This document shows, piece by piece, positions 27,001 through 63,041 of a stretch of DNA of 64,000 nucleotides (the stretch's first letter is position 1; each line of letters begins with the position of its first letter). The stretch covers positions 13,727,975 through 13,791,974 of the forward strand of contig CM048846.1 of NCBI GenBank assembly GCA_026545225.1, written 5' to 3'. The notes under the pieces were generated by a model. It saw only the letters and a list, made by a program, of their open reading frames with translations. It had not been told where the DNA came from and made no database searches. Source of the DNA: Cornus controversa. Taxonomy: Eukaryota > Streptophyta > Magnoliopsida > Cornales > Cornaceae. Both the position numbers and the translations under genes were made by a program.

Positions 27001-30000
27001 CGTTGTCATTGATCTTTTTGATCACCTTGTACGGCCCATACTTCCTTGGCTTCAACTTGTTATAGGAACCAACTGGGAACCTTTCCTTACGCAGAAACAC
27101 CATAACTTGATCACCCTCAGTGAACAATTTCTCACGTCTCTTCACATCTGCTGCAACTTTATACTTCGCATTCTTCTCCTCTAACCGCGCCTTTACTTCA
27201 GCCTGAACATCGCGAACTTGCTCAGCCAGGTTCTCAGCAGCAACACTTGTTCCAGTGACCTTGGGAAGACGTGTCAGGTCTAACGCATGCTTAGGAGGCT
27301 GTCGATACACTAAAGCAAAAGGAGATTTACCAGTAGCAGTGTGAATTGCATTGTTATACGCAAATTCAGCTTGTGCCAGAATTAAATCCCACTGTTTAGG
27401 CTTGTCACCACAAATGCACCGAATTAAATTCTCCAGTGTTCGATTCAGATTCTCAGTCTGCCCATCGGTCTGCGGGTGCGCAGTGCTACTGAACTTTAGA
27501 GTAGTATCCATCCGCCGCCACAACGTAACCCAAAAATGGCTAAAAAATTTCGAATCCCTATCAGAGGTTATAGACTGAGGAACTCCATGTAAACGGACCA
27601 CCTCACGAAAGAACAGTTGAGCCACATGTGACGCATCAGATGTCTTCCGACAAGGGATAAAATGTCCTATCTTGGAGAACCTGTCAACCACAACAAACAC
27701 AGAGTCTACTCCACGCTGAGTTCGTGGAAGACCCAAAACAAAATCCATCGACAAATCCTCCCATATGGCATTCAGTACAGGTAGAGGCATGTAAAGACCT
27801 GTATTTTGAGCCTGCCCCTTAGAAGTCTGACAAACATAACACTTGCGAACAATGTTACCCACGTCGCGTTTCAACTGAGGCCAGTAATACCACTCGGCTA
27901 TCCCACTGATAGTCTTGTCACGCCCCAAGTGACCACTCAAACCTCCACCATGTAACTCTCGAATCAGCTTCTCCCTCAAAGAGCTCCGAGGAATACATAA
28001 CTGATTACCACGGAACAAGTACCCTTCGACCAAATGAAATTCTCCCTCTGTCTGTCTAAGACCACATTTTTCCCATACCTCAGCGAAATCTTCATCCTCA
28101 GAATACAACTCTTTCAAGAACTCAAACCCAATAATCTCTTGCTGCATAGTGATCAGTAAACTCGCACGTCGACTTAATGCATCTGCCACCTTATTCAGAA
28201 TCCCAGATTTGTGTTTCAGCACATAAGGAAACTTCTGCATATAGGTCACCCACCGAGCATGCATATTACTTAGACTCCTCTGACTGTTTAGATACTTCAA
28301 AGCTTGGTGATCAGTGTAAAGAATAAATTCTTGCTGAATCAGATAGTGCTCCCAATGCTTCAGAGCACGGACAATAGCATAAAATTCTTGGTCATAGGTA
28401 CTCCACTTTCGGCATGCATCACTAAGTTTCTCACTGAAAAACGCCACTGGTCTCTTCTCTTGTGACAGAACTGCTCCAATCCCAATTCCACTAGCATCAC
28501 ACTCCACCTCGAATAGTTTCTCAAAACTGGGTAAAGCCAAAACAGGAGTAGTGCACGGTTTTTCTTTAATGACTGCAAAAGCTGTGTCGGCATCTTCACC
28601 CCACTGAAACTTACCCTTCTTTAAGCACTCTGTAATAGGAGCCACAATACTGCTGAAGTCCCTAATAAATCGACGATAAAACGTCGCCAACCCATGAAAA
28701 CTCCTCACCTCTCCTACTGTCTTTGGTGTAGGCCAATCACGAATGGTTCTCACCTTTTCATCATCAACCATCATTCCCTCCGAACTGACCACATACCCAA
28801 GGAATAACAATCTTTCTGTCAGCCAACTGCATTTTTTAAAGTTGATAAACAACTTATTTTCGGACAACACCTCTAACACAGCCCGTAGATGCTCCATATG
28901 ATCTTTCTCACTCTGACTGTAAATCAGTATGTCATCAAAATAGACGACTACATATTTTCCAATGAAAGGTCGCAATACCTGGTTCATAAGCCGCATAAAA
29001 GTACTAGGCGCGTTGGACAATCCGAAAGGCATAACCAACCACTCGTAGAGTCCATCCTTTGTTTTGAAAGCCGTCTTCCATTCGTCACCAGGTTTGACCC
29101 GAATTTGATGGTATCCACTTCGCAGGTCGATTTTTTAGAACAACTTCGAACCCTCCAACATATCTAGCATGTCATCCAATCTCGGGATTGGAAAGCTATA
29201 TCTGACAGTTATCTTGTTGATCGCGCGACTATCAACACACATCCTCCAACTGCCATCTTTCTTTGGGACTAGTAACGCGGGAACAGCGCAAGGACTCATG
29301 CTCTCTCGAATGAACCCATTTTGCAACAATTCTTCCACTTTAGCCTGTAAAATCTGATTCTCCTTGGGACTCATCCGATAGTGTGGCAAATTTGGTAAGC
29401 TTGCTCCCGGAACTAAATCAATATGGTGCTGAATATCTCTCAACGGTGGAAGATTATTTGGTAACTCTTCAGACATCAACTCACTGAATTCGATCAACAA
29501 GGACTGCACCTCCTCGGGTAACACAACTCTCTGCTCTTCCTTGCCTTCTATCACTAGAGCTTGCACAACCACAACATGTACCTCCTGTGCCTCCTTAACT
29601 TCAGATTCCAACTCAGTTATTGACGTGACTAAAGAGACTAAGGATTGCTCTTCTACTGTGGCTTTAGTTGAGCCACCACCGGAACTCTGCTTCGGAACCA
29701 TTGCAATCTTCCTGCCATCCCAACTGAAAACACAAACATTGTCGCGCCCCCTGTAGGTGATATCCACATCAAACTGCCATGGTCGTCCCAATAACACGTG
29801 ACTAGCATCCATGTCGACTACATCGCAGACCACCTCATCTCGGTAATGCTGCCCGATTGAAATAGGAACTTTACACACCTCCGTCACGTTTGCTTTAGGC
29901 CCCTTCTGAATCCACCCAATCGCATACGGCTTTGGATGTTTTTTTGCCTGCAGCTTCAGGTGTTCCACTAATTTTCTAGACACAAAATTCTCACAACTTC

Positions 30001-31970
30001 CACTGTCAACAATTAAATCACAGACTTTGCCCTGGACACTGCAGCAAGCCTTAAAAATATTATTTCTTTGTGAGAAATCCTCCAGCTTCGTTGAACACAT
30101 GACTCGCTGAATCACACAGTTGACATGCTCTCCCTATTCCTCCGCAATTTCTGCACCATCCAGGAATTCGTCAATACCTACTCCTTCAACATCCTCGTTG
30201 TTTTCCCCAATATCCACGAAATTCACTGATTTTCTGGCTGAACATTCATTCGAACGATGGCCTGGTTGGCCGCACCTGTAGCACTTCAAACCGCCTGTTT
30301 TAGCATATGGGTTTGGCGCCATCCGTGGGGCTTCCTTCGTATCTGCTGCTGTCGGACGCATCCCAACATGGTTATTACGTGTCCTTCTTGTAGTAGGAAA
30401 ATCGATTGGATGCCTTTTCCATTAACTCTGCTTTCAAGGCCATGTTTTGCGCCTCATCCACTGTCCAAACAACTTGCAGTCCAATTTTGTTTCGAATGGT
30501 AGACTTCAATCCTGCTAAGTATCTGGAAACCTGCTGTCCATCAGTCTCATTCAGGTTGTTACGAACTGACAGCCTGGTCCACTCCTCAGTATAATCCGCA
30601 ACAGTCCTATTACCCTGCACACAATTCTGGTAATTCTGGAAAATAAATTGCTCATAATCTGGAGGTAAAAACCTGCTCATCAAAAGTTGTTTCATTCTCC
30701 TCCAGGTTCGTATAGGAGCCTTGCCTTGTCGTCGCCTATCGTTTTGCAACTTCTCCCACCAAACAGCAGCCACGCTTCTCAACTTATACGCCACCATCTT
30801 GACTTGTCGATCCTCCGTAACTTCAATCATCTCGAAAAACCTCTCAACCTCAGAAATCTAGTCCAGAAATTCTTCAATCTGCAATTTACCATGGAACAGC
30901 GGTATGTCTGCGCGTATTCTATAGTCAGGTTGATTTTGGTTTCGATTTTGTTGACGAATTCCTTGGTGACTCACAACGTCCTCATCAGAGTCTTCATCAC
31001 TCAAATCTTCGAACTGCTCATGTCTCGCCACTCTAGCCGGATGTCCACCTCCAGGGCGGCCAAGGGCAACTCTAACTCTGTTGGCAGGGGCTTGAGCGTT
31101 ACCAATAGGGATGTCGGGATTAGGTTGCCGCTCCATCAGTTGCTGTAACGTGGCCGTCAACCTCTCCATCGCCTGTCGTTGCTCGTTAATCGCTACCCAT
31201 ATATCTGCATCCCTACGACCAGCGTCGCTAAGGTTAACTCCTCCGTCTTCGTTGTTGACCATCATACAAGACAAATCCTTAGGCTCTGATACCACTTGAC
31301 GCAGAACGGAAGTATAAGGGGTTACCAGCGTAAAACCTAAGAACAAAAACTGGAATCCACCAGCACAATTAATTGTAAACCAAAGTAAAACTTTATTGAT
31401 AAATTGATTCCCCTCTGCCCTATGGCAGTACATATATTTATAATAGAGAAATCATAATCCTAACAGGACTAGGAAACCTAAAAATAAAGGAAACTTGTAG
31501 AAATTCTAATCCTAACAGGAAAAGAAAATTTATTTCCAAAGGAAACGAAAAAAAGGAAAGAAAACACTAAAACAATAAAGGAAACTTGTAGAAATCCTAA
31601 TCCTAACAGGAAAAGAAAATCTATTTCCAAAGGAAACGAAAAAGGAAAGAAAACACTAAAACAATAAAGGAAACTTATTATAATAGTTATTCTGACAACC
31701 GAGCGAAAAGTTATGCCATTTTCTTCGGACCAACGTGTTTTGCCAATTTTCGGTCAATCTCTTCTTCAAACTCTAAAGCCAATTGTCCTACATCAGTTTT
31801 AAGTGTCATCATAATGTAATTCTTGGCAATTGACTAACATGATAATTTACAAGGCCTCCTTATGAAGCCAATGTAGTTCCAGTGCAGTTATACCAAACAT
31901 TTAGGAGATAAGAACATCAAAAAGTCTCGAGCAATGGAGTGGAATTAATAGTTCAAGAAAAATCTTAAAA

Positions 31971-33965: not shown

Positions 33966-36900
33966 ATGTTGAGAGTCGCAGGTAGGAGGCTCTCCTCTCT
34001 CTCATTGTCATGGAGGCCGCACCAGCTACCAGCCTTAACCTCGTCGCCTATCATCTCCAAGTATCCCATCAACGGCGTTGATTCCTGGTCGGACGACCTC
34101 GGATCCACCAACTTATTTCCATTAGCTCCCCAATTTCATCATCTTCCATGCAGAGGTTAGCTTTTCTTTTTTACATTATTATTATTATTATGCAATTTTT
34201 TACCTTGATTAATGCGTTGAAGAGAGTATGGAAATGATGATCTTTTGTGTAAGCACAATATTTTTACTCAGATTAAGTATTCTAAATTGAAGTCAGATCG
34301 ATTTATTGCTTAAAGCTAAATATATATTATAATACCAAGGACACAGGCAATGTAGCGCGTTGACACTAGATCCAAATGATGCCTTAAGCTACATTTGGGA
34401 TGTCCTTTTTTATTTATTTATTTTTCCTTTTTTTTTTGGGACCCACCAGCATGATGTATATGATTTGAAAACTAGGTATTTTGACCGATGCCATAAGTGT
34501 TTGACATGCCTTTTTGCAAACAATTTTTTCCCTACATCACCCTCTCACTCTCTTGGTAATTTGATGACTGCATCTCACGAAGCAATGCCTAGCAAAGTGC
34601 AATCTCTACAAAGGGCTAGAGGCAAGTGCGATCTGGAATCGATGATGAAACTCTAGTGAGGAAAAAGCTTAATTATTTTTTAAAATACAAGAAGTTCTGT
34701 TATATTTACTTCCATGAATAGAAAAGGGAAATATTGTTCATATTGGTATTTTCTCAACAGTGATTGGTGTATCTATCTAGGATTGAAAGGAAAGTTTCAT
34801 AAAACAATTATTAGACTAGCCACACTTTATAGAATAAAATGTTGGGAACTAAGAAAAAACATATGCATAAAGTGGGTATAGCAAAATTGTGAATGTTGAG
34901 ATGGATGTGTAGTAAGAAAAAAAAAGCATACAATTAGAAGTGAAAACATTAATTAGAATATTGAAGTACTATCCATTGGAGATAAAATGAGAGAAAATCG
35001 ATTAAGATGGTTTGGACATTTATAAAGTAACACCATTAAGTGCACCAACTATGAAGCGTGACATTGTCCACATTGATTGTAATGTTAGGAGAAGGGGAAC
35101 CAAAATTAACATGGGCATAATTAGTGGGGACATAATTACTGAGGGGAGATATGATAACATGTGGTTGATTAAGGTTATGGCCTTGGATGAAGCAAAATGG
35201 AAAAATAGAATTCGTGTATCCAACCCTAAGTAGTTGGGAATAGACTTTGTTGAGCGTATTTTCTTCACAAAGGTAGATTGCAGTTCTGCCTTGTTGGAGG
35301 ATAAAAGTTGGTTACCTTATGCCATATGAAGCACAAACACTTCTAAAGAGGAGTTGTGTTTGTGCCCAACAAATTTTCTACTACAACACTCCTATAATTG
35401 TGTTGGACATGACAAAAATGTTAAATTGTTTATTTCAACATGAGTTTGATATCGTATGCATGGCCAAAGTAAGTTCCTCATGCGAGTGAAATTATAATTT
35501 TAAAAAAGAATTTAGTTGTTAAAATATATATATTTAGAGAGAGAGAGAGAGAGAGAAATATTTTGGGGTTGTGTGATATGATTAGTAGTATACCCAACTC
35601 AACAAAGCTTTTTTTTTTTAACTATTTCCTGTGGGTTACATTGATCGTGTTTCACCATTCTGCTCTATCTAAAGTAATAGTCTCAATTAATAGTGCATTT
35701 TATCTTTTCTTTCTTAAGTATTCCCAGCAATAATATATTATGCAAAACGATATTTTAATTTATTCAATTAAATTAATTTATGGAATCTCAATATAGTAAT
35801 CAAAATTAAGCTTTCCCTATGAAAAGGCAAATATAATTATTAATTTATATAAAGCCATGTGTTATAACAAACAGCCACAAACCAAGCACAATCACGAAAC
35901 ACGACAGAAAACGAAACAAGCACCACACAGAATAAAAATATTAACTTGGTTCGGCGATATACCTTCGGCGAAAGTTTTCACTATGCGAAAATCAAGATAT
36001 TACAAGTTTCGACCCCAAACCCTAGCTCTCGCTCTCTCACTCTCTTTTTGTGTTTTCAGTATTTTCTCTCTTAATCCCACTCCAAACCCTAGATGCCCTT
36101 ATATACCGGGCTACAAGAGATTCCTAAACAGGGTCCAAAAACCCGCAAGAGAAAAACAGGCCACACAAAGCCCATTTTCGGGTCAAAATTGGGTCACAAT
36201 GCAACCCGGGCTGAGACAAAATTCGGGCCACAACATAACACCATGTCCTTCCCATGTTTGTTGTACTTCTTTAAGGTTTTGTTGTGTAGGTGTGTCCATG
36301 TTACATGGCTTTTGTCTTTAGGATCATGCTTCATAACTCCTTAACATAACTTATACTCTACTAGTTTGCCTTTGCCATTTCCATGAGGAATATAACAACT
36401 TGAATTGAAGAACATAATACATGGGTATATTGGGGTGCGTTTAGTAACGAAAATATTTTTTGTTTTTGTGCCCGAAAGAAAACAGAAATATATTTCTATT
36501 TTTCTGGGTGGAAACAAAAAAACAGAAATAGCGTTCATTAAAACTTACTGTTTTCACATTTTTAAGAACAAAAAACAGTGTTTAGTAACTTATTTGTTAT
36601 ACAAATATATTTTTAATTTTATTTTTAAAGGACTATGTTCTTGATTATAGGACTATGATCATGCCCAATACTTCTCTTTGATTTCTTGTCCAGTGATTCT
36701 TTAGGACTGGAAGTACTGCATTGTCTAGGCTGTGTTTGGTAGAAAACTTTGGAAACCACTACTCCATCTTTCTCTTCTTAATTCATTGTCACCAAGATGG
36801 TACTGGTGCATTACCCAGTTCGTCTTCTCGGGCTTTCTTTGCCTTCAATAGTTGGTGTAGAGCACTAGTATCTTTTTGAAACCTTTCACCACCCCACCGA

Positions 36901-39900
36901 TGATAACTGGTCTAGTCTTGCCTGTTTTGTGCCATCTTGTCTCACCCCCTTCAGCATCTCTTTGCACCTTTCTTCGTTTTCTAGTCCAAGTGACGGATTT
37001 GGCCATTTTTGCCTACACCTGTGTCATATATATATATATATATATATATATTAGATCATGCACAGAAAGAAATTAACATGTACATGAATTTCTCATAGTC
37101 AAGAACAATGACAATGCTAGCTGTATTAAGAGACTCAAATCAATTATTTATTTAGCAATGGAATTAATAGCTTGTGCTCAGAGTAGAATATATATATATA
37201 CACACACACACGTGCATATGATGATAAGGTCAAGAGAGAAGTGGTAATTAATTACAAAAACCTGATATGATTTTTGAAGAAGAAGAAGGAAATTACATTC
37301 TTGTGCTACAGTAAAAAAAGAGTGGGCTCCACTACAGTTAAAAAAACATTCCTGTGCTACAGGAGAAGAAACAAGAGAAACACAATTTTTTTGTTTCCAC
37401 TTCCTTTAACAAAAATGAGAAATATTTTTGTTTTTGAGAACAGAAATATTTTTACTAAACATATTTTTTGTTTTTGTTTTTGCCTTTTCAGAAGATGGGA
37501 ACAGAAAAACAAGAAATATTTCTGTTACTAAACGCACCCTTGGTTTTCTTCCTTCATTATTTAAAATTTTGTATTGTGTGGTTGGTATGAATGGTGGTTC
37601 TAGATGCTGTGACATGAAAAAAAAAAGCTTTCCTGTTGCAGCTTAGTTTTAAGGACCTTTTATATTGGGTAGCTTTTTGCTCTTTATGATTGATTCATTG
37701 CTTCTTACTCGGAATTTTGCAAGGCTCACAGTCTTCTCATGGCAGAATCTTGAAGTTAAATCTAAGATGATTTAATTGAAGTAGTTTATAACATTTGGAA
37801 ATGGAAAGAGGGTTTTCCGCCTGCAAAATTTATGTGCAATTTTCTAAACAAATTTATAATAACTACTCACTCGATCATTTTCTTTTTAAATTGAGTGAAG
37901 AAGTTATCAATTGATCATACTTCCCTCAAAAAGAATGGCTCTTTCTTCATATTTTTAAGTTCGTTTTAAATAAAACTTTTATGAAGTACATCTTTTGTTG
38001 TAGACATCAATTCTTTAAATGGATAAGAGGGACATACATGTAGTTAAATAATTGAACCTTCAAAATACAATTACTTTATCCTCTTGCTTGTCTCGTGCTT
38101 AAATGAATTAAAGTACCTTGAGTAAAATATCGCTACCCAATGTAAGCTCTTTTGTGATTATTTATTTGTTTGATAAGTGTTATTCTTGATCCATTATGGC
38201 TCAATAGGTGCCTTAAAATAAAAATGAGATTTAGTAACGTATTAATATCCATTAACCCTGGCCCCCACACCACCCACAAAAAGGAATAAAAAAAAAGGGA
38301 GAGAAAAAAAGATAGAGATTTGCTAAGTTGTATAATTTATGTTATTTTAGGGAGGTCAGGTTTTGGGCATTGGCTTCTAAGTTCTTACATTCTTTCTCAA
38401 CTCCTAGGTTTTGAACTAGTGATTGAGTACAAGGAGAGAAATTAATCTTCTTAAACTTAGCTACTTTCTATTCACTAATCTAGATCAATCTACACGGCTT
38501 GAAATTTGATTTTTCTTTCACTTAGCATAAGGCTCTCTCTTCTCCAACCAATATCAAGCTTTCAACTTGGCAAGTTTGATAAGTTTATTCTATTTCTTAT
38601 CTTGGTTTGAAGTATTTTTTTTTATTGTAGATTTGTATAACATTGGATTTTGCTTCTTCCCATAATTCATTATACATTGAAAACAGTGTTGGCCTCTTAG
38701 AAGGTCAAAGATTTGTTTTTTAAGCGAATGTTTGGCTCCTAGGCAACTTATCAAATCTAAGATTTCTTGACTAGTTAAATTAGCGATCCAGATGAAGTGT
38801 CTGATATTCTCTACAAGCTTGAAATTTGTGTGGATTTTATGTATCAGTCTCGAACAATGGCTTATATCGAGCATGCAAAATACGGCCTTAGTGAATTAGC
38901 CTCAAGTTCTGAACATTAAATATCCTCAAAAGAATCCATATGAAGTATGAGAATGATAGCGAAGGGGAAAAAGTAAAACTATATGAACTGACCAGGAAAT
39001 GATAATGTTGAAACATTACTTAACAGTTAACTCTCTTGAATCCATATTGAGATAATCAACTTAAGAGGGAGAACTAACTGTCACATTATATTGATATTGA
39101 AAAAGAACGAAGAAGAAGACACAGACACACAACTTCCTAATGCAAGGGTTGTCATGCCAAGCACAAGAGAAACAAAGGAATTGTTAGTAATTGTCGGCAT
39201 ACAGGAGGATCATAAACATTTGGATCGAGGAATTGAATGGAATTAGAGGAAACGTGTTTGTTTTAAAATTTTGGAGGAAAGGAGAGGAATAGGAGGGAGA
39301 GCCTTACTCCTTGATCAGTGCTTTGGCTATCCTTTCAAAAGCTATGTTTCTTGGACTTGGGTATGGGAATCAGGTACTGGTACTACATGTCTAGAGGTTG
39401 GATTAATCCATTTCTAAATTTATAGGATACAGGGACTCAGCTAAAAAGTGTCCAAAAATTTAATACGGACAAATATTAGAGACTCAAAGTTTCCAACTAC
39501 CTAAACTATGCGAGTAATTGTTGAAATTAAAACATTAAATTCCTTAAAATTATTTACCAGTGATTTAGTATCATCATTTTTTTTATTAGTAAGAAATATT
39601 ATTATCATTTGTTTCGTAGAGAGGAGACATTGACTTTTGATTCTGATTTTTTAAAATACATTTATATTATTACTCCCTCTGTCCCAAAAAAAGATTCCCT
39701 TTTTGGGAACTCGACTTTTTAAGAGTGTATTGTTTAATATTTTTTTATTGTGAGAGAAGTGAATGAATTCTCAAATTTACCCTTCTAAAATTTTGACTTG
39801 TATTAGTCATGGGCCAATTATTCAATGGTGGGTCCACAATGGAGGGCAAATTAGGAATTTTAAAAAACATGGTGCATTGGATTTTGAAAGGTGGACACTT

Positions 39901-42900
39901 ATTTTGGGATGGAGAGAGTATATAAAAAGAATAAAGACAACATACATTAGCTCATTTTCACTAGAATGTTTAAAGAAACAATTTTAAATAATAAAATTAT
40001 AGGCCATCTATTTTAAATGATAATACTAGTAAACAATTTAAAATAAAGACGGGCATAACATCTGTCCTGCCATCTCTTTTAAAAAGAAAAGACAAATAAA
40101 AGGACATGTTATCTGCTCTTTTACTCTTTTACAATGATCGGTTACTTCTAGAATTGGTACTTATCACATTTCTTTATTGAAAAGAAAAATAAAAAAATAA
40201 GTGGTTGTAGTCTTGTAGAAGTCAGAAGGATAAGAACGCATGGCTCAATGTGATTTTAAAACACACTGCAACTAAGGAAACGTGGCAGCAGGATGACCTT
40301 TAATTGGCCACGCATAGCAGGAGGATTTAAACAGTCTTGAAAATTCCAAATGACATGTGAATTTACACTTTTGCTAGACGTAGGATATCATGCAATAGCA
40401 GCGCCTGGATGACACAATTGTCAACCTGCAAAGGAACTCTATTTTCAAACTGGAAACCTTAATTTTGAACCAGAAACTATCAGGCACATCACAGATGACA
40501 CCCGATCTAACAAAGAAACACAAAAAATTTCAAAACCCTAACAAGCATCCATTGAAACAATTTTCCACAAGCATCTCTTCATCTGTTGTGTTTGATAGAT
40601 GTGAAACATATTTTGTGTACGCGTCTGTGTTGTGTCGTGTCATGTCGACATGGACACCTTGGGGTAATATAGCGAGTCCAGGTAATATAGTTCAAAAATG
40701 GGAGCATCTTATCCCTATTTTTATAACAAGTAAATTTTGCCCTTATTAGTTACAAATTAGAATAAGTATTTCCTTTTTTTTTCCTGGGCAAGATGGAATT
40801 TTTTTATATATGAAACAATATAGTACAATGCAAAACAAGTGGGGGCATACCCCCACTGAGAACAAAAGAAAAACACGCTAGTCCAGAAAAAGTACTAGTT
40901 TTACAAAGAACAAGGACAGTAATGATAAGAAAGGAGAATAAATCCTGAAACTGTACGTCAGAAATGTCAAGAACTTCCCAACAAATCTGTTTAGCAGCTT
41001 CTTCTAGACTTCCCATCATGCATTCTATTATTTCTCTCACTCCAAATATGCCAAATAGTAGTGAACAGTCTTCTAGCAAATCTAACAGCAACTTTTGACC
41101 TTTTTTTTCCCCCTTCGCTACTTTTTCCAAACACAATGAATGTGCTTCTTTTATATTTAGGAGGAGCTTCTGTGGTGTGTTATAAGATTGATTATTTTGG
41201 TTTAGTTGAATAAAATAAAGAGAGATATATGTTATATTAAAGGTTAAGCAGGAACTATAGAATCAAGAAATTTTCAAATAACTAGGATTAAAATTGAATA
41301 TGTGGAATGTGATTTTAGCAAAAATATATTTATACGGAAAAAAAGTGAATATTAGGATTCAAATTGCATATGTGGAATGTGATTTTAGCAAATATATATA
41401 TACAACTGGAAAAATATGAAAATCGAAGGCCAAGAGATGTATAAGAATGAATTTGTTATTCAATCTTGATTTTTCAGTAGGAGAGATTGGAAAGAACGTT
41501 CTTCATAGAAACAAGTAAAATGAGTGTGGAAAAAGATTAGGATGGTTAAATAAAGAAATGCTTTTGGAGTATTGTCTTTCTTTTCCTATTTGAAACTCAC
41601 ACACCCATTTTGTCCCTATGGGACTTGAACCCTCGACCTTCTACTTGGAAGTACCACTAGGTTACAACTTGGAGTATTGTTGATTATTGTTATTATGAAT
41701 TTGAAAGGAAAATTTTATAATATGCGAACTACTAAGAAATGCCATATCCATAAGCTAAATGTATCGTGATAGAACTATGGTAAGACAAAAAAAAAGAGAG
41801 GATAAAAGCCAACTTTAAAATACTTTTGGGATGATACAAATAGCACAAATTTGATACAAAAGGTGAGAGAATCAGCTTAATGGTTGTGCGGGAGGAAGAT
41901 TGGTAAATGCATTGGTTGATTACTACACTGATGAGGTAGATTGGTGTAGTTCACATGGAGAATACTGTTAAAAAAGAGGAAGAGGAAGACACTAAATTAA
42001 TGTGGTCTATAAATTAAGAAAGAGAAGTCATGATCGTAGATGAATGAGTTCCAACACCACCTTGATCTTATTCTATGTACCCCATGAATTTACTCCATAT
42101 GCCCCCTTCAAGCCAAACACAATGGGCAATTGCATATTTGTAATTCCTCAATTACTACCTGGTTTCTTTTGTAAAGATGGACATATTTTCTTCTTATCTA
42201 ATTGAGTCAGGATCTTGCGACATTTTCTTGAATTTATGAAATTGATTTTTTTTCAAAAACCCAAGACAAGGTAAATCAACAATTTGTATTTTCCATCCGT
42301 TGCTCCTTATCAAGATTAAATGTTTAGAGATTTCACATACCTAATCTCTTATCATGGTTGGTTATTGTTTTGTTGGGAATTGTGTCTCAAATTCCTTGTG
42401 TAAATAGGTTTCTATTTTAGAGTTGTATTTTATTAGGTAATTTCTTGTTGGGCAAGTCTTGGGCTCCAAGGATTGTAATCCTTGTTCAACAAGGAATTGG
42501 GTTTCGAATTCTATAAATAGTGTTGTGAAAAACAGCCGCAAACCAAACACAATCACGAAACACGACACAAAACGAATCAAGCACAATACACAGAACACAA
42601 GAATTTACGTGGTTCGACAATGTGCCTATGTCCACGGCAAAGATCCGGCAAAAGATTTCACTATGCGAAAATTAGGAGATTACAAGTTTCAACCCAAACC
42701 CTAGCTCTTGCTCTCTCACTCTCTTTCTGCGGTTTTAGTGTTTTCTCTCGTTAGTACCTCCAAACCCTTAGATGCCCTTATATATCGGGTCAATCGGGTT
42801 GCAATGCGACTTGGGTCGAGACAAAATTTGGGTCACAACATAACAAATAGATACCTAGGTAATGGGTTGGGACTTGTGAGATTGAGAGAGATGTAGTCTC

Positions 42901-43947
42901 ATGAGGGAACTCTTGTGTAGAGGTAATACTCTCATTTTAATTGAGAGATTAAAACTCTTATGTAGATGCAATACTCTCATTGTAATTGAAAGGTCACTTT
43001 CATTGTTTTGAAAGGGCACTTAGAGAGAGAATTTTTGTTTAGAATTTGTGATTTCCTTTTGAGTGAGATTGGTGTACAAGGGTTGAGAGTTGAGCGTTTA
43101 CAATCCTTCAACTTGTACTGTTACAATCTATATAGTGAAATCGGGCTCTCCGTGGACGTAGGCTTGTGTTGCCGAACCACGTATAATTCTTGGTATGTTC
43201 TTGCAAATTGCTTCGTGCTTGTTTACTTATCGTCACATCGTAATATTTGGTGGGACGTGATTGGAGGCTTGTTTCTTAACAGTTTTTATTTCTAGTAAAA
43301 TGGTTGATTATTGGTGTTGTTTTATGGTTCATATTTCTTCATTATCTTCAGTTAGACTTTGTTGGTTTCTCTTCCTTCCATAAGTATGTATTATGTAATT
43401 TTTAAATGGCAGCCATTTTGTGTAAAAGAGTACCTTAAGTCAGGTTTAAACCTAGTCCCCTCTCCTAGCACCTTGGTGGTACTAATGCATTCACTCTTTC
43501 ATCTTATTCACTCCGTATTGGTTTTTGACATTTTGTTAGATACATGTAATTGGAGGAATCATCTATAACCCAAATTTTATATTTGTTTTGTTGAAAAGGC
43601 AGCAGAGTGTGCTCAAATTTAATAACGACCAACAGTGTTTCCTTTTCTTTTGCATTCTTCAAACACTTTGTTGGAAAGGGATGACAATGGGGCAGGTTTG
43701 GGGCGATTTTTTAAACCTTACCCCAACTTGATTACAAATGCCTTCTCCCATCCCTATCCCAAACCTGGGATGGGTTTATACATCCACTCCCATCTCCATC
43801 CCGAGAATGGATTTAATAGCCCGTTCCTGCCCCATCTCGACCCTATATACATATATAGATCTTTACGTATGTGTATATATAAATATATACACATATATAG
43901 ATCAAGATACAAATCAGAAGAAAATCCTAGATATTTATTTGTGTATA

Positions 43948-43984
<37 letters not shown>

Positions 43985-46900
43985 TCTAGCTTACCATGTT
44001 TGGCCGCTGGGAAGTGGAGATGCTAGTAGAAGAGATTTGATTGTAGACAATCACCGAAGAAGTGATTTTTCACCATAGATGATCGTAGACAATTTTCTCG
44101 CTATAAAAGTGATTATTACTAGCCATAGACGATCGTCAACCTTGGACTCACTTATGATCACTGACTGGGGGAAGGAATTAGAATGGAGTGGCAGGTGGCT
44201 GAAAGTGGAATCGGGGTGGGGTGGTGGCTAGGTAAAATGGAAACCTTAAGTCCCCAAGGAAATGAGAATTAAGATATATATATATATATAGGTTAGGGCA
44301 TTTTAGATATATAATTATAAAATAAGTGTATCAATGTAATTTCATTATATAATAGGGGCGGGCTAGGCAGAACAATGGCACCCCTGTTCCCACCCAGATG
44401 TCAGGCCAAGTTCAGCCTTCTTATACCATACCTGCTCATTTAAGAACACACCAAACCCATCCCATTAGGGATGGGGTGGGGTGGTAACTTGCCAGATCGG
44501 GCCTAATTGCCACTCTTATAATGGATTAGCAAGTTCATCCATATTTGCTTTACAATTTTTCTACTCATAAGAAAAAGGTTGATTCCACGTGTTGGAAGGA
44601 GACTAAAGAGACTTGACTGCTCTCAGCTTGAAACTACATCATTGTACTTGTCACTCAGTATGAGTTTTTATCATGCACCAATGGTTCCTTCTTTTATTAC
44701 ACACACACACACATATATATATATATGTATATTCACACACAAATATTTTTAAAAGACTTCAATTTAATGACCACATTGTAGTCACCTACATTTTTTATGC
44801 CATTTCATTGTATTGTTTGAAAATGCTTATATATCTGTATTGCAGCTAAGAGATACATTAGAATTTTTTTTTTAACACCAGTTCTTATTCATCTATTTGG
44901 AGGGCCATACTTTGAATGATCACAATAGTTATATGCTTGTGGAATTTTATGTGATCAGTAATAATAAATAACATATTTAAAAGGAGTTCGTAGCTGCGAT
45001 TAGGAAAAAGAAAAGAATGATAATAGTGAAACTAGTAATGTGTGAGGGCCATACCTTGAATGATCACAATAGTTATATGCTTGTGGATTTTATGTGATCA
45101 GTAATAATAAATAACATATTTAAAAGAGCTGCTATTAGGCAAAAGAATAGAATGATAATAGTGAAACTAGTAATGTGTGGAAATATATTTAGGGTAAATA
45201 TCACTGACAACCCTGAGGTTTGATGTATTGTCACGTGACTAACACCTCCTGTCAGAATTTTCAATATTTTAATAAGTGAAATGTCTTGACTGCCACTGTT
45301 CTTTCTCTCTCATCTCCTCCTCCAACCACCACCGCCAATATTCTCTCTACCATTATCTCGGCTGCCAAATGATGGACAGAATATTCAACATGGGTCAAGC
45401 AAACTTTGAATATTTTAATTCAACTTGCACCTTCCTCTCTGTTGCTCTCATCCTTCTTGGCATCCCTCTCCTCTCTCTCTCTACAATCTCCATTCTCACT
45501 CTCACGTCTCACAGTTACCATGGGTCTTCCGGGTTAAGCATGGCCATGGAGCATGCATTGCTTGCCGGAAATGTGTCTCTGGTTGAAGATTCGGCAGTGA
45601 ATGGGTGGTGACAGGTGGTCCAGTGGAAGTGGGTCTTGCTCCGGTTGCATGGAGTTTTGGTGGTGAAAGAGGACGGTGGTGGACTGTTCTGATGAAGAAT
45701 AAGGTGGTAGTGGGTATGATGACCAGTGATGGTGAAGCTTGGCCATGGTTGTGACGGACTGACGGTGCTCGATGAAGATAACCCAGACAGAAATGGTGAT
45801 GACTGTGATGGGTTCTCTGTGCATGGAGCTTGGACAGTGAGCTTTTGCAGTGGAGGTTATTGGCGGAGTTGATGAAGCTTGGTGAAGATAGCCAAGATGA
45901 TGGTGGCTTCAGAGACATGGAGCCCCGACAGTAATGGGTCTTCTTCATGATGGTTCGCAGAGGTTGATGGAGCTTGTTTTGTATCAATGACGAAACACAA
46001 AGAGAACTTCATAAAGTAACTGAGTTTCATAATGAACACATAAAAGATAAATAAAAATGAGAAGTCGAAAGACAATATGATTCGACAATGATAATAAAAA
46101 ACAGTGCCCAATTCAACAAAATCATAACCAGTATCCATACAATGCCATACAAGAAACGCATAAGAAAAGAAAAGAAAAGGAAGTGCTACAAATAAACCAA
46201 ACAGAATGCTTACATTTTCCCTTGCTTCTTGGTAAAGTGCACGAACACGAGAAGCACCAACCCCAACATAAATCTCCACAAACTGAGAGGCAGAAATGGA
46301 GAAAAAGTTCACACCTGCCTCACCAACAACAGCTTTTGCTAATAAAGTCTTCCCAACCCCAGGGTGACCACAAAGAAGTGTGTCACTTGATAAAGCAACA
46401 TACCATAAAACAGTCATTTCAACCCAAGCCGAGTCATATGTAGAGCATTGCAGAGAACTTGCTTATAAGAGCAAAATGAACAAAGTGAAAAATGCATGTG
46501 GCATAGCTGCATATAGCCAATAAACAGAGAAACAAACAAAAACAGATAAAAAAAAAGAATGAAATCCAAGTAATTCTTTTTAGATGAATCACTGGTATAT
46601 ATTATAAGGAATATATGGATTTTTTATTAGTATCGATTATAAAGAATATACTATTACCACTTACCACACAAACAAAATGGCCCATTCAGCTACTGTGGTG
46701 GTTTGTGCATGGGAGAAGAGGATGTTCATGGCGGTTGCGCATGGAGTTCGTATGGTGACAGAGCTTCACTAGTGGCCATGGTATGGTAGTGAAGATGACT
46801 CGTTGACTTGTCCGGGAGGGAACAACCATGGGGCTTCAATGGAGTTTGGTGGTGGGTGGTTGCTTCGGTAGTGGAAATTTCGGCAGTACTTGTTGGATAT

Positions 46901-49872
46901 GGAGATAAATAATTTTATATATAGGTTATATATATTATAGTATATATATATATAGATAGAGAAAAAGAAAGAGAAATTTAATTACTTTTTTATTTTATGT
47001 TAACATTATTATTTATGGAAATAAATAATTATATATATAGATATAGATAGAGAAAAAGAAAGAGAAATTTAATTACTTTTTTATTTTATGTTAACATTAT
47101 TATTTATTAAAATAAATAATTATATATATAGGTTATATATACTATGTATATATATAGGGTTGTTCAAAGGGGCATTTGGGTCCATTAGACAGGGTTAAAT
47201 GACTAATTTTAGCATTCAAAATGGTTAGGTCAAAAGTCAAAGAGCAGTAGGATTATTTCGCTATGAAGAAGTGCTCTGACACACTGGACTTCTAGCAGGA
47301 GGGGGTGTTTGTGATATACAGAACAAACTACAGGGAGTGTTGGTGACGAAAATTCAAAGAGTTGTAGCCGCATGACAATACATCAAATTTCAGGGGTGCC
47401 AGTAATATTTACCCTATATTTAAAGCAATAATCACTCATGCAACCCATCTGGACTAGATGAACATGTTAATGTACAATGTTTGGAACATACAGTTAAATT
47501 ATAGCCGAATGAGATAAATCATGTATGGGAGGACAATTTAATGGTAATGTAGGAAAAACTTGTGGTGCGTATGAGATGGTGCAAAAGTTAGAAGGGTTTT
47601 CTAAGGAGAAATCTTAACATCTCCAAATAGATTGGCAATTTTAAATGTATATATGAAAAATTATCAAGAATATATGTGGGATCGTAAGAATAGGTGATGG
47701 AATTCAAAATTTTAGATAGTAGGATTATTTAAAAATACGATGTTAAAAAAAAAAAGTGCATGTAATTTACAAGATGAAACAAACACTAAAAATAGGATTA
47801 TTTAAAAAAATAAGATTTTAAAAAAAGTGCATGTAATTTACAAGATGAAACTAACACGATATGATGATATGGAATAAGATTGATAAATATATTTAAATAA
47901 TATCAAAGCAAGTTCTTAGAAAATCAAAATGAAAACCATTATTTAAAGTTCAGAAGAATATTGTTAGTAAATAATTTTTTCACACTATCCGGTGTAGTGG
48001 ATTATGGAGGTCTAGGAGAGAGGATGGTGTTGGTTGACAGCGGTGGTGGTGGTCAGTTTGAGAGATGGGGGAGGGGGGGGGGGGGGTAGGTTAAATTTGG
48101 GGTTAATTTAATAATTCCATCCAATCACAATGATGTCAGCAATTTAGATGTTTATGGATATAAAAGTAATGGGAGTAAATTTGTCATTTCAATACCAACT
48201 GTCAACAAACGTTAAGTTTCTTGCTCTGACAGTGGGTGTTAAAGTGATTTTCACAAAAGTATGGTGCAATAAATTTACCCTTTAATTAAAGTTATAAGCT
48301 CAATAAAGCAGAATGGTGAAATATGATTCATGCAGTTGACTCCAAATAGTTGAGACAAGATTTTGTTTAGTTGGTTTGAGTAATTGTGTGTATTGCCAAT
48401 TTGGCTGGTTAACTAATATTGAGGAAGGAGAATTGATGTGCTCGTTAGGCTATATGAGTTGAGGAATAAAGGTGTGATGTTTGACCTCAAAAAACTCTAA
48501 AGCATGATTGATGAGTCTTTAACCATTGAACCTTCGGGCAGTTATAACATGGCTTTCGCTTCCATTCATTCTTAGGAGTGGTGGAAAACGACAATGCATT
48601 TGGATAACTCGATCTCTTAAAAGTTTATTCTTCCCTTCTCTCTGGCTGATTTGGATGACTATCCTGCACGCATTCTCTCATCTCATTTGAGACCCCAATT
48701 ATCTCCAAGGGTTTCATTTGTTGAGGGAATTCTTGGCACCCAAATAAAGCATGAAGGAAATTTTTGAAGATTAATGAAGAAGTTGGAAACATGGAAACAC
48801 CACCCTTTTTGGGAAAGTTTTTGCATCCTAACTTGGAAGATTAACTTCTTTAAAGTGCATCTGATGCCTTGTTTTTAATTTACTTTTATTGTAATGTCTA
48901 GGAAATTTGTTGAAAACTGAGCTGTAATGTTCATTTTAATGACTTCTTCCATGATTTTTTTGTTCTGCTCCCATCCTTTGAGAAAATGTACCTTCTTTAA
49001 GTGGTTCAAACACGTACTAGAATATACAAGTGAACCCAATCTTTGGTTATACATTTGTTTTAAATGCAACCTCTATAGCAAGTTTGTAATCTAATATTTC
49101 CTCATGTCCTCTTTCCTTTATTCAGCCATACCTTCCAGTGCTAGAATGGCAAGACAAAAGGTTTGTTTGCTTCTTGTTGACATGCAGTAAACACATAGAC
49201 CGTTATTGGTGATTGATTTATGTTGCAGGCTTTGCTTCCGAGTCGCTCACCCCAAAGAATGAAAATAACATTATTCCAGACATTCCTGCAACTGTAGCAG
49301 CTGTTAAGAACCCCACCTCAAAGATAGTCTACGATGAGCACAACCATGAGCGTTACCCACCAGGTGACCCCAGCAAGCGGGCATTCGCCTATTTTGTTTT
49401 GACAGGTGGAAGGTTTGTGTATGCTTCCCTGATTCGCCTCCTTATCCTAAAGCTTATTCTCAGCATGTCAGCCAGCAAGGACGTTCTAGCTCTGGCCTCT
49501 CTTGAGGTTGATCTCTCCAGCATTGAACCTGGCACCACTGTGACTGTTAAATGGCGTGGAAAGCCAGTCTTCATCAGGCGCCGAACAGAGGAGGATATCA
49601 AGCTGGCGACCAGTGTTGATGTGGGATCTCTCCGTGATCCGCAGGAAGACTCAGCCAGGGTTAAGAATCCAGAATGGCTTGTTGTTATTGGGGTTTGCAC
49701 TCATCTGGGTTGCATCCCCTTACCAAATGCTGGTGATTTTGGTGGGTGGTTTTGCCCATGTCATGGTTCTCATTATGACATCTCTGGCAGGATCCGTAAG
49801 GGCCCGGCGCCATACAATCTGGAGGTACCGACTTACACTTTCTTGGATGAGAACAAGTTACTAATTGGATGA
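33966..49872 (+). CDS. UCR1: Rieske iron-sulfur subunit of mitochondrial complex III (15-kb intron)
   Basis: Carries electrons from ubiquinol to cytochrome c1 in the inner mitochondrial membrane. Two exons, 33966-34155 and 49229-49872, join across an intron of 15,073 bp (donor G|GTTAGC, acceptor TTGCAG|GC) as ...[11 protein letters not shown], giving 277 residues, close to other plant precursors. Exon 1 is a presequence starting [11 protein letters not shown], the usual plant Rieske N-terminus. Exon 2 has [20 protein letters not shown], a membrane segment near [16 protein letters not shown], the hinge [18 protein letters not shown], then the cluster motifs CTHLGC (C220, H222, C225) and CPCHGSHY (C239, C241, H242). 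C220/H222/C239/H242 bind the 2Fe-2S centre; C225-C241 form the disulfide. The C-terminus is EENKLLIG-like (LDENKLLIG). No additional exon is needed between the two. The intron holds at least ten repeats. Confidence 0.95.
34790..35255 (+). mobile_element. RTE-clade LINE fragment (Rieske intron)
   Basis: Degenerate plus-strand RTE 3' end: [16 protein letters not shown]-like block near 34975-35025, [11 protein letters not shown] region, and a terminal [14 protein letters not shown] near 35190-35233, matching the family's AEWRxRIHVADPN end. Frames are broken and the 5' part is missing. Confidence 0.8.
35860..36240 (-). mobile_element. Solo LTR, family A, 381 bp, TSD CCATG
   Basis: TGTTA...TAACA ends and a perfect 5-bp duplication CCATG (35855-35859, 36241-36245). 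On the minus strand it reads as an LTR with a TATATAAGG box, so it probably lies antisense to the Rieske gene. A second copy of the family is at 42521-42845. No internal region, so it is the product of LTR-LTR recombination; superfamily not determined. Confidence 0.85.
36433..37539. mobile_element. TIR DNA element, about 1.1 kb (Harbinger-like candidate)
   Basis: Left end GGGTGCGTTTAGTAACGAAA, right end the inverse of GGGTGCGTTTAGTAACAGAAA. TTG flanks both ends (36430-36432, 37540-37542), a 3-bp duplication though not the canonical TWA. Internal sequence includes (TA)n at 37024-37052 and AGAAATATTT motifs near both ends. No transposase frame. Confidence 0.65.
37543..39672. other. Rieske intron segment without a bounded element
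   Basis: AT-rich intron DNA, no exon or element boundary detected. Open frames such as 38590-38874 (-) have no recognised motif. Confidence 0.4.
39673..39918. mobile_element. Stowaway MITE, 246 bp
   Basis: Starts CTCCCTCTGTCCCAAAA and ends with the inverse of CTCTCTCCATCCCAAAAT, the classic Stowaway (Tc1/mariner) terminus. A TA dinucleotide lies at both ends (39671-39672 and 39919-39920). Internal sequence is non-coding. Confidence 0.92.
40795..41145 (-). mobile_element. L1-type LINE 3' fragment
   Basis: The minus strand encodes [20 protein letters not shown] near 40990-41060, the end of the zinc-binding reverse-transcriptase domain of plant L1 elements, followed by a 3' end with A-rich tail on the minus strand (TTTTTTT on the plus strand near 40796). 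Strongly 5'-truncated and disrupted. Confidence 0.75.
41576..41668 (-). mobile_element. tRNA-derived SINE, second copy of the 7024 family
   Basis: On the minus strand: TTGTAACCTAGTGGTACTTC, AGGTCGAGGGTTCAAGTCC (B box) and TGGGTGTGTGAG, the same blocks as 7024-7154. Flanked by TTGGAGTATTGT (41564-41575 and 41669-41680). Inserted at the edge of an RTE remnant. Confidence 0.85.
41690..41800 (+). mobile_element. RTE LINE scrap
   Basis: Short plus-strand stretch reading like [20 protein letters not shown], part of the RTE C-terminal region. Too small to say more. Confidence 0.5.
42371..43281 (+). mobile_element. Solo LTR, family B, split by a nested solo LTR
   Basis: Begins TGTTGGGAATTGTG and ends CTTGTTTCTTAACA, with GTTT on both sides (42367-42370, 43282-43285). 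The 3' half has CCGTGGACGTAGGC and GCCGAACCACGTA, sequence common in plant LTR ends. Removing the nested insertion leaves about 580 bp. No internal region remains. Confidence 0.75.
42521..42845 (-). mobile_element. Solo LTR, family A, nested in family B LTR, TSD AATAG
   Basis: TGTTGTG...CATAACA ends and a perfect AATAG duplication (42516-42520 and 42846-42850). Clearly related along its length to 35860-36240 (shared CACTATGCGAAAAT, CAAACCCTAGCTCT and AGATGCCCTTATAT). It is younger than its host LTR. Confidence 0.88.
43678..44519. mobile_element. hAT-like non-autonomous element (candidate)
   Basis: Left end AAGGGATGACAATGGGGC and right end the inverse of TAAGAGTGGCAATTAGGCCC, with GGGG/CCCC-rich subterminal blocks (GGGATGGG, CCCATCCC) on both sides. 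The middle has (TA)n(GA)n at 43949-43983 and (AT)n at 44273-44291. Flanking 8-mers are only partly alike, so it is old or the ends are slightly off. Confidence 0.55.
44890..45181. repeat. Tandem duplication, unit about 145 bp
   Basis: The block containing TTGAATGATCACAATAGTTA and GATAATAGTGAAACTAGTAA occurs twice head-to-tail (about 44900-45045 and 45046-45180) with few differences, so it is recent. It directly adjoins the Pack-MULE-like element. Confidence 0.9.
46214..46378 (-). pseudogene. Captured FTSHi-type AAA ATPase exon fragment
   Basis: The minus strand encodes [20 protein letters not shown], then [20 protein letters not shown] and [15 protein letters not shown], followed by an intact GTAAGC splice donor (46213-46208). 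This matches the Walker A exon of plant FtsH-like proteins, closest in memory to FTSHi4 (plastid import motor/embryo-lethal family). The Walker A second residue is His where Pro is usual, and an Ala in KAVAGEAG is Val here. The Walker B, arginine-finger and protease parts are absent, so this is a fragment and not a gene. Retained intron sequence means it was captured from genomic DNA. Confidence 0.85.
46905..47110. repeat. Tandem duplication, unit about 105 bp
   Basis: AGAGAAAAAGAAAGAGAAAT and TTATGTTAACATTATTATTT occur twice head-to-tail within the Pack-MULE-like element, nearly identical. Confidence 0.9.
48069..48086. repeat. Poly-G run
   Basis: GGGGGAGG followed by a run of G, in a GGT-rich stretch (48040-48090) of the Rieske intron. 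Unusual in this AT-rich DNA and prone to sequencing error. Confidence 0.85.
48295..48370 (+). mobile_element. RTE LINE 3' scrap
   Basis: Reads like [16 protein letters not shown], the terminal block of plant RTE elements. Just upstream (about 48260-48285) is TAAATTTACCC, which may be the end of another terminal-repeat element whose left end I did not find. Confidence 0.5.
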
Positions 49873-60196: not shown

Positions 60197-63041
60197 TTAC
60201 AGCTTGTCCTCGAACTCAGACAGTGGAGTCATCTGCTCCTTCAAACCTTTCCTCTTACGAATCTCTGAAACCAGATTTGCTGCTTGCGATCCAGCCTCCA
60301 GTGGATCAGACGACATCATGTCCCAGTGATCAAACACACACTGAGGGAAAGCCTGCCCTGACGTTGCGGCTCTCAAAGTGCTTGAAAATCCGAATGACTC
60401 AACAACAGGAAGGTAAGCCTTGATGTTGTACAGAGGAGTACCCTGCCTCTGCATTTCCTCAAACACATGGCCACGTTTCTGATTGAGAACACTGTAAATT
60501 CCACCGAGGGCTTGCTCTGGCGCTTGAATTTCCACCAGATATACAGGCTCTAGAAGACGGGGCTTGGCTGTAATCTGAGAAGCATATATAACCCTCCTAG
60601 CAGTTGGAATAACCTGGCCACCACCTCTGTGAATAGCATCCGAATGCAGAACCACATCACAAACTTCGAAGCAGATACCCCTCATGTTCTCTTCAGCCAA
60701 TGCACCTTCTTTCGATGCCCACTGGAACCCAGCAACAACAGAATCCTTGATTTCATTCAGGTATTGGACTCCCTTACACATATCAACCACCATATTGGGG
60801 CCAGTGGTTTCAGGGCCAAAACACCAGATTTTCTTTGCAAGATCCTTGTCCCAACCAAACTCCTCTGACAAGATTTTTGAACGAGCCTTTGGGTCATCCC
60901 TTGGGCCAATACGCCCATCATCAATTGCCTCTGGAAGCCCCTCCTCCAAGGGTCTAGCTTCCATGTATAAACGGTTGTGCTTGTTAGGAGACTTGCTCAT
61001 CACAGTCCGGCATGACTTCTCAAGAACTGTCTCACGGAAGGAGACAACGGGATCAGATTTTATAATTTCAGCACCACCCATGAAATCATCCTGCAAGTCC
61101 TTCAGACAGATCTCAAGGTGAAGTTCTCCAGCACCGGCAATGATGTGCTCCCCAGACTCTTCAATGGTACACACCACCATAGGATCAGATTTGGCCAAAC
61201 GTTTCAGACCTTCGACAAGCTTGGGAAGGTCAGATGCAACCTTGCACTGTACCGCCACACGCACAACGGGTGAGACAGAGAACTTCATTGCTCGGATGGG
61301 ATGGGCATCGACTTCCTTCTCATTTGTCAGGGTCGCATTCTTGGTGATGTACTGATCCAAACCAACCAAGGCCACCGTATTCCCACAAGGTACATCTTCA
61401 ACAGTTTCCTGCTTCTTTCCCATCCAAATGACAGTTCTCTGAACACTCTTAACATACAAATCCTTTTTCTCCCCAGGGACATAGTTAGGACCCATGATTC
61501 TAACTTTCAAACCAGTTGAAACCTTACCAGCAAAAACACGACCAAAGGCAAAAAACCTACCCTTATCGGATGCTGGAATCATCTTGGACACATATAGCAT
61601 AAGAGGCCCCTCAGGATCACAGTTCCTTATAGCATTTGCATATTGATCATCAAGAGGTCCCTCATACAAGTTCTCAACACGATATTTTTGAGCAGTGGAA
61701 GGAGATGGGAGGTGGAAGATCATCATTTCCAGTAAAGCACTACTTGCTGGAAGCCAGGTCTGCATGACACGCTTCATCAATGCCTTCCCCATCAAATCCT
61801 TCTCATCACTCTTCATAGTGACACCAAGTTTTTGCAACATAGGCCACAGCTTATCTTTCTGATCATTCATGCATGTGTTAATGATCTGTTTAATGGGTTC
61901 ATAGCAGAACTGAACAAAACCACGCTTGCATGTAGGAGAACCAGTATTTTTGCTGGTCCATTTCTTAGTAGTAGGGTCAAAAAAGTTCTCACCCCATAGC
62001 CGTTCCATCATTTTAGTTTCATCAACTTTAAACTTGGAAGCATACATCTTGGCAAAGTTGGTAAGAGTAAATGCCCAACCGTGCAACCCTGCAGAGAAAG
62101 CAACTGTTCCCTTCTCGGGGTAGACCATAACATCACCAAGGAGAGGATCCTCATATGTAGCCATGATGACATTTGCATTCTCAATAACCCTTTGGAATGT
62201 TTGATAAGCCTCCTCTCCATCGACCTGGAGCTCAAGGAAGCACCTGTCCATCTTGTTAACAGTTAAGACCGGTCGGATCCTTTCTCCCAGGGCCTGGCGG
62301 AGGACAGTTTCTGTTTGGACGCACACACCCTCAACACAATCAACCACCACAAGAGCACCATCAGTAATGCGAAGAGCAGCTGTGACCTCAGACGAGAAGT
62401 CAACATGTCCAGGGGAATCTATGAGATTGATAAGGTACTCGTTCCCATTTCGCTCTCCCTTGTAGCTCTTCAAAGATTCATCAGACATCTGATAGTATAG
62501 AGAGATACCAGTAGACTTGATGGTGATACCACGCTCAGCTTCATCCGCGCGGGTATCTGTCATCCGCACATCACCGGCAACTTCTTGAGCAATGATACCA
62601 GCGGCAGCCACAAGAGAATCAGTAAGCGTGGACTTCCCTGTCGGGAGCAAGGGTAACAAATATCAGAACAAGTACCAACAATCCCAAAGACAGACTTCAT
62701 TCAAATGTCGGATCAAGAGTCAAGACCATGCACGGGTCAGAAGTTACAATGACTATAAAATTTGGTCTTTAAAATGTCTAATAATGACTTCAAAATTGCC
62801 AAAAAAAAGAGTTAAATAACTATAACCCCAGCCTAGGTGCAGATGAATTTCATACCATGATCCACGTGAGCAATAACAGACATATTACGAATGTTATGTT
62901 TGTAATCCATAATCCTACGAAGCTCATCAGCTGTAAACTTCACCTGCACGAATCAAAACAATTTCTCCATCAGATAAATTTCCAACTTCAAGCAAGAGGA
63001 AATAACAAATCAGAAAGAACAGTAAGCAAACAACTTACCAT
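60197..63041 (-). CDS. Elongation factor 2 (eEF2)
   Basis: GTPase that drives ribosome translocation in the cytosol. Three coding exons: 63041-63039 (just the ATG), 62943-62856, 62637-60197, with introns of 95 and 218 bp. Total 843 residues, the standard eEF2 length. G-domain motifs: AHVDHGKST (26-34, split by intron 2 after the G of codon 31), [10 protein letters not shown] (switch), DSPGHVDF and NKMD. The regulatory stretch [12 protein letters not shown] contains the Thr phosphorylated in animals. Domain IV has [20 protein letters not shown] with the diphthamide histidine at residue 700. The C-terminus is [13 protein letters not shown]. Start choice: the ATG is followed directly by GTAAGT, and the next exon starts [20 protein letters not shown], matching the invariant M-VKFT N-terminus. 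It is highly conserved and complete. Confidence 0.97.

Follow-up and report, generated by a model that had tools for sequence, protein, structure and literature searches.

The element described here, 2223 bp long and lying at positions 45192-47414 of the window (the whole 64,000-nucleotide stretch analysed, contig coordinates C2:13727975-13791974), is a genuine Pack-MULE, and a clean and ordinary case of this known kind of gene-capturing transposon. We think it very probable that a segment of the FTSHi2 gene was copied into a family member that had no such cassette, that the loaded element was later copied again, and that the captured exon is a neutral passenger. The first-pass annotation had proposed a Pack-MULE with a captured exon and its intron flanks, and this reading is borne out by a parent gene, a terminal-repeat family with 9-bp duplications, and one cassette-free relative. 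The capture is unusually legible: a single genome contains the parent, the relative without the cassette, the loaded copy and another copy that shares its junction, which makes it possible to read both the junctions and the sequence in which the events took place.

Boundaries and interior of the element

The two ends are imperfect inverted repeats of about 70 bp, the left one (45192-45262, plus strand, beginning GGGTAAATAT) pairing with the right one (47348-47414, minus strand) at 57 of 71 aligned columns (80%), and the alignment score is 67, whereas 2000 shuffles gave 29 at most. When the left repeat is aligned to other copies, a gap of some 25 bp opens within it; this gap and the 80% identity of the ends count against the Pack-MULE reading. 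The element is flanked by TATATTTA, a perfect 8-bp target-site duplication present at 45184-45191 and again, exactly, at 47415-47422, for which the chance of a match is about 6e-5 at the local composition. Inverted termini and a perfect 8-bp duplication had both been claimed previously and both stand, and the two termini, when their pairing was tested, proved to be partners of each other. We also note that about 143 bp are duplicated in tandem at 44900-45180, with copies starting near 44900 and 45044, and that this repeat stops a few bases before the left target-site duplication.

Between the termini, internal family sequence with a GC content of 49% (45300-45976, plus strand), parts of which are common to the copies L010, L011, L012 and L018, is followed by the captured FTSHi2 segment (45977-46693, minus strand), a further stretch of internal family sequence common to the cassette-free relative L012 (46694-46897, plus strand), and an AT-rich, internally repeated right part that is present in many family copies (46898-47171, plus strand). 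No transposase was found within the element in the three open reading frames of at least 110 aa and the eight of 12 half-element frame stretches (stops read as X) that were compared with Pfam; the left interior gave no match within what was scanned, and the AAA exon of the cassette was the sole Pfam match in these frames.

A multi-copy family with 9-bp target duplications

The genome searched comprises 771.7 Mb in 61 contigs and is that of a plant, judging from its Rieske and FTSHi genes. A search of it with the focal element, in which 40 of 2318 candidates were scored, gave at least 132 matches. A 22-base pattern of the family terminus, with two mismatches tolerated at most, was found 785 + 747 times (1532 matches, which are not counts of elements), and the reversed control pattern gave 0 + 0. 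From the element search 39 places were fetched, the parent gene and 38 candidate copies (L010-L047), and both ends are present in 23 of the 38. Perfect target-site duplications flank 16 of these 23 two-ended copies in strict register (15 of 9 bp and one of 10 bp) and 17 when one base of register freedom is allowed, whereas none of the 23 has one at any of 40 shifted control offsets. The remaining six lack a perfect 9-bp duplication despite the register freedom, having none or one of 7-8 bp (L024, L029), and in L014 and L024 a duplication of 9 bp is present if a single mismatch is accepted; of three longer copies added subsequently, L081 and L083 show a perfect 9-bp duplication and L082 does not. 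The terminal inverted repeats are long, as expected of a MULE, spanning 71 columns in the focal copy and 79-96 in the 12 sister copies measured, with 76-90% identity in all 13. A search for other copies with the same termini had been suggested as a check, and it uncovered a multi-copy family that duplicates 9 bp.

The focal duplication is one base short of this. Both the discrepancy and the six two-ended copies lacking a perfect 9-bp duplication were counted against the Pack-MULE reading. hAT transposons make 8-bp target duplications and have short terminal repeats, and taken alone the focal duplication, exactly 8 bp, would fit a hAT-type transposon carrying a gene fragment. We regard this as very unlikely and reject hAT membership, both because the perfect duplications of the sister copies are of 9 bp or, once, 10 bp, within the range of about 9-11 bp of MULEs and absent from the shifted controls, and because terminal repeats of 79-96 columns beginning GGG do not resemble hAT ends. 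Since sister copies duplicate 9 bp, the family is Mutator-like rather than hAT, and the 8-bp duplication of the focal copy reflects either natural variation or the loss of one base from an original 9 bp.

The captured segment and its parent gene

The 717-bp cassette consists of the end of intron 1, the whole of exon 2 (173 bp, encoding the Walker A motif; 46214-46386, minus strand) and the start of intron 2. It matches C1:7579406-7580120 at 92%, and at that locus exon and introns are contiguous, as the earlier proposal of a gene fragment with intron flanks would have it. Because it has this intron-exon-intron structure, the cassette was captured from genomic DNA and not from a spliced mRNA. 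It is AT-rich and mostly intron, with a GC content of 34%.

In the 10 kb of the parent locus that were read, which cover part of the gene, the counterpart of the captured exon is in frame and is followed by further FtsH exons, and upstream of it lies a stop-free first exon of about 442 codons. In a comparison with the Protein Data Bank this exon reaches 580.8 bits (E 1.4e-173) with Arabidopsis FTSHI 2 (entry 8xku, chain F; we take the species of the entry to be Arabidopsis), compared with 13.1 bits (E 0.34) for FTSHI 4 of the same entry, and the best match of the captured exon itself is likewise FTSHI 2 (91.4 bits). The FTSHi parent with matching exon and intron flanks, for which the first-pass annotation had proposed a search, was thus found on contig C1, but the name given there, FTSHi4, is rejected on the exon 1 scores; by sequence similarity the parent is FTSHi2 (EMB2083). 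Loss of this gene is embryo-lethal in Arabidopsis (PMC8197885, in excerpt). Within its intron 1 (about 3150-3700 of the fetched locus, L009) there are fragments that by eye resemble the tail of a LINE reverse transcriptase.

A whole-genome search with the cassette, extended by four bases of flank on one side and seven on the other, found four places: the focal copy, the FTSHi2 parent, a stretch of the cassette in the relative L010, and another FtsH gene, in which the exon alone is matched at 75% and which is presumably of the active chloroplast type judging from its translation. Within this genome, neither outcome that the first-pass annotation had named as refuting was seen: apart from the parent and that exon match, the cassette sequence lay in family copies, and the two termini pair with each other.

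State of the captured exon

The Kimura two-parameter distance between cassette and parent is 0.052 overall (702 sites), 0.054 for the exon and 0.051 for the introns. Equal distances in exon and introns argue against constraint, in a comparison in which the exon sample is small (173 bp) and the distances include the parent's own branch. The captured exon has nine changes relative to the parent, four of which alter an amino acid; one converts the Walker A motif from GPPGVGKT to GHPGVGKT, at a variable position of the motif. The acceptor AG is mutated, with an AG remaining one base further on, and the donor GT is kept. Because the exon is as diverged as the introns and has a mutated acceptor, it looks like an inert, neutral passenger.

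The host gene and a possible function

The element lies in intron 1 of a gene for the mitochondrial Rieske protein, a model predicted from the DNA by tblastn, for which a plant Rieske protein served as query. Exon 1 (33966-34155, plus strand) is placed by an 18-residue match (E 5e-4), splice borders and frame, exon 2 (49229-49872, plus strand) has the Pfam Rieske and UCR_TM domains, and the 15,073-bp intron between them (34156-49228, plus strand) has GT/AG borders and a matching frame. The FTSHi2 exon is antisense to this gene, and the earlier placement of it, antisense within an intron of a mitochondrial gene, is thus confirmed. Elsewhere in the window we note, by eye, long open frames that resemble the polyprotein of a gypsy-type LTR retrotransposon and lie upstream of the Rieske gene (26780-30830, minus strand), and a long open frame similar to elongation factor 2 (60197-62659, minus strand).

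This arrangement raises the question of function, in that transcripts of the Rieske intron would carry an antisense FTSHi2 exon and could give rise to small RNAs tuning the parent. The captured and parental exons share perfect runs of 38, 54 and 30 nt, which in principle would permit small-RNA targeting. However, the cassette is intronic, its divergence is uniform over exon and introns, its orientation may be due to chance, and there is a single full copy, and we consider a functional cassette highly improbable. Less probable still is the more specific suggestion that an antisense FTSHi2 exon in the Rieske pre-mRNA, with a match of up to 54 nt, might, by way of small or antisense RNA, couple the expression of a mitochondrial respiratory gene to an essential chloroplast gene.

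Relatives and the order of events

Two relatives bear on how the cassette was acquired. L012, on C9, is a family member without the gene fragment, in which the family interior is continuous over the capture site and about 17 bp stand in the cassette's place. These 17 bp could form a perfect hairpin (CTTCG-GTGT-CGAAG, with a 5-bp stem and a 4-nt loop), an observation made by eye in one copy. L010, on C6, has the same left junction as the focal copy and retains part of the cassette's intron. Because L010 is without an intact left end and L012 without an intact right end, the target-site duplications of both are unreadable.

Relative to the parent, L010 and the focal copy share six substitutions, lack the same 9 bp and carry the same additional 4 bp, although some of these differences may have arisen on the branch of the parent. 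In the alignment of focal copy, L010 and parent a further eight columns differ in the focal copy only, 13 in L010 only and two in all three, 188 are identical, and 22 gap columns were set aside. The identical junction is best explained by one capture that was later copied, an order of events that rests on one partial copy (L010). Segmental duplication of the focal region to the L010 locus is not supported, as the 3-kb flanks of the focal element have no similarity to the 7-kb L010 locus at E 1e-3.

The course of events that we favor begins with a family member that shared the internal DNA but had no cassette. It would have gained 717 bp of nuclear FTSHi2 in exchange for about 17 bp of its own, most likely in the course of repairing an internal break or stalled replication fork by copying from FTSHi2. 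Template-switching repair of an internal gap is the model put forward in PMC8277862 (excerpt). One may also imagine that two neighbouring MULE copies flanking a piece of FTSHi2 were mobilised together, as in the tandem-insertion model described for other superfamilies (PMC8903248, in part), and the repetition within the AT-rich right part, seen in many copies, would speak for such an origin. The cassette, however, sits within sequence that is continuous in L012, and no remnant of a terminal repeat was seen at either cassette junction; we judge joint mobilisation unlikely. Since about 17 bp were replaced, no terminal-repeat remnants were seen, and inspection of the junctions by eye shows little or no microhomology, gap repair by template switching would appear to fit better. 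After gap repair, the loaded element would have been copied at least once, to account for the C6 remnant and the present copy, and the latter would have entered intron 1 of the Rieske gene at a target rich in T/A.

The element is non-autonomous and would presumably have been moved in trans, by a transposase recognising the GGGTAAATAT... termini. A search for MULE domains scored 150 places of 886 candidates, and in 30 of these 150, taken together with 1.5 kb on each side, the family terminal repeat was absent apart from one 16-nt match (E 0.007); in the part of the genome searched no transposase with the family termini was found, which counts against the Pack-MULE reading. The longer copies L081 (3340 bp), L082 (2288 bp) and L083 (1776 bp) were considered as autonomous partners and rejected, since none has a stop-to-stop frame of more than 134 codons, and two stretches of L081, in one frame each, gave no Pfam hit.

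Comparison with known systems

The literature searched contained no paper combining Pack-MULE and FtsH. The statement in the first-pass annotation that Pack-MULEs are described mostly in grasses is partly right, tomato Pack-MULEs also being in print (PMC3310237, excerpt). Our understanding of Pack-MULEs is unchanged and the significance of the case is modest; it adds an AT-rich, intron-dominated capture that contrasts with the GC-rich captures of rice-group MULEs (PMC4858842, as far as the excerpt goes).

Like the Pack-MULEs of rice and tomato described in the available parts of PMC3310237 and PMC4858842, the element is non-autonomous and Mutator-like, with inverted termini and a target-site duplication near 9 bp, and it holds a captured fragment of a nuclear gene whose parent lies elsewhere. 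Its terminal repeats are short relative to the typical 100-500 bp of MULEs given in the former, at 71-96 columns in the family, and its capture, mostly intron with 34% GC, is unlike those of the rice-group MULEs that take GC-rich sequence according to the latter. With the animal Pack-TIRs of PMC8277862 (again in excerpt) it has in common an internal capture at a small gap in a pre-existing element and a multi-copy state after transposition, although it belongs to a plant Mutator-like family, has hardly any junction microhomology by eye, and has its parent on another contig. As in the Pack-TYPE elements attributed to tandem insertion in the portion of PMC8903248 consulted, only part of a terminal-repeat family carries an internal gene fragment; unlike in those elements, no inner terminal-repeat remnants are seen and the cassette replaces about 17 bp.
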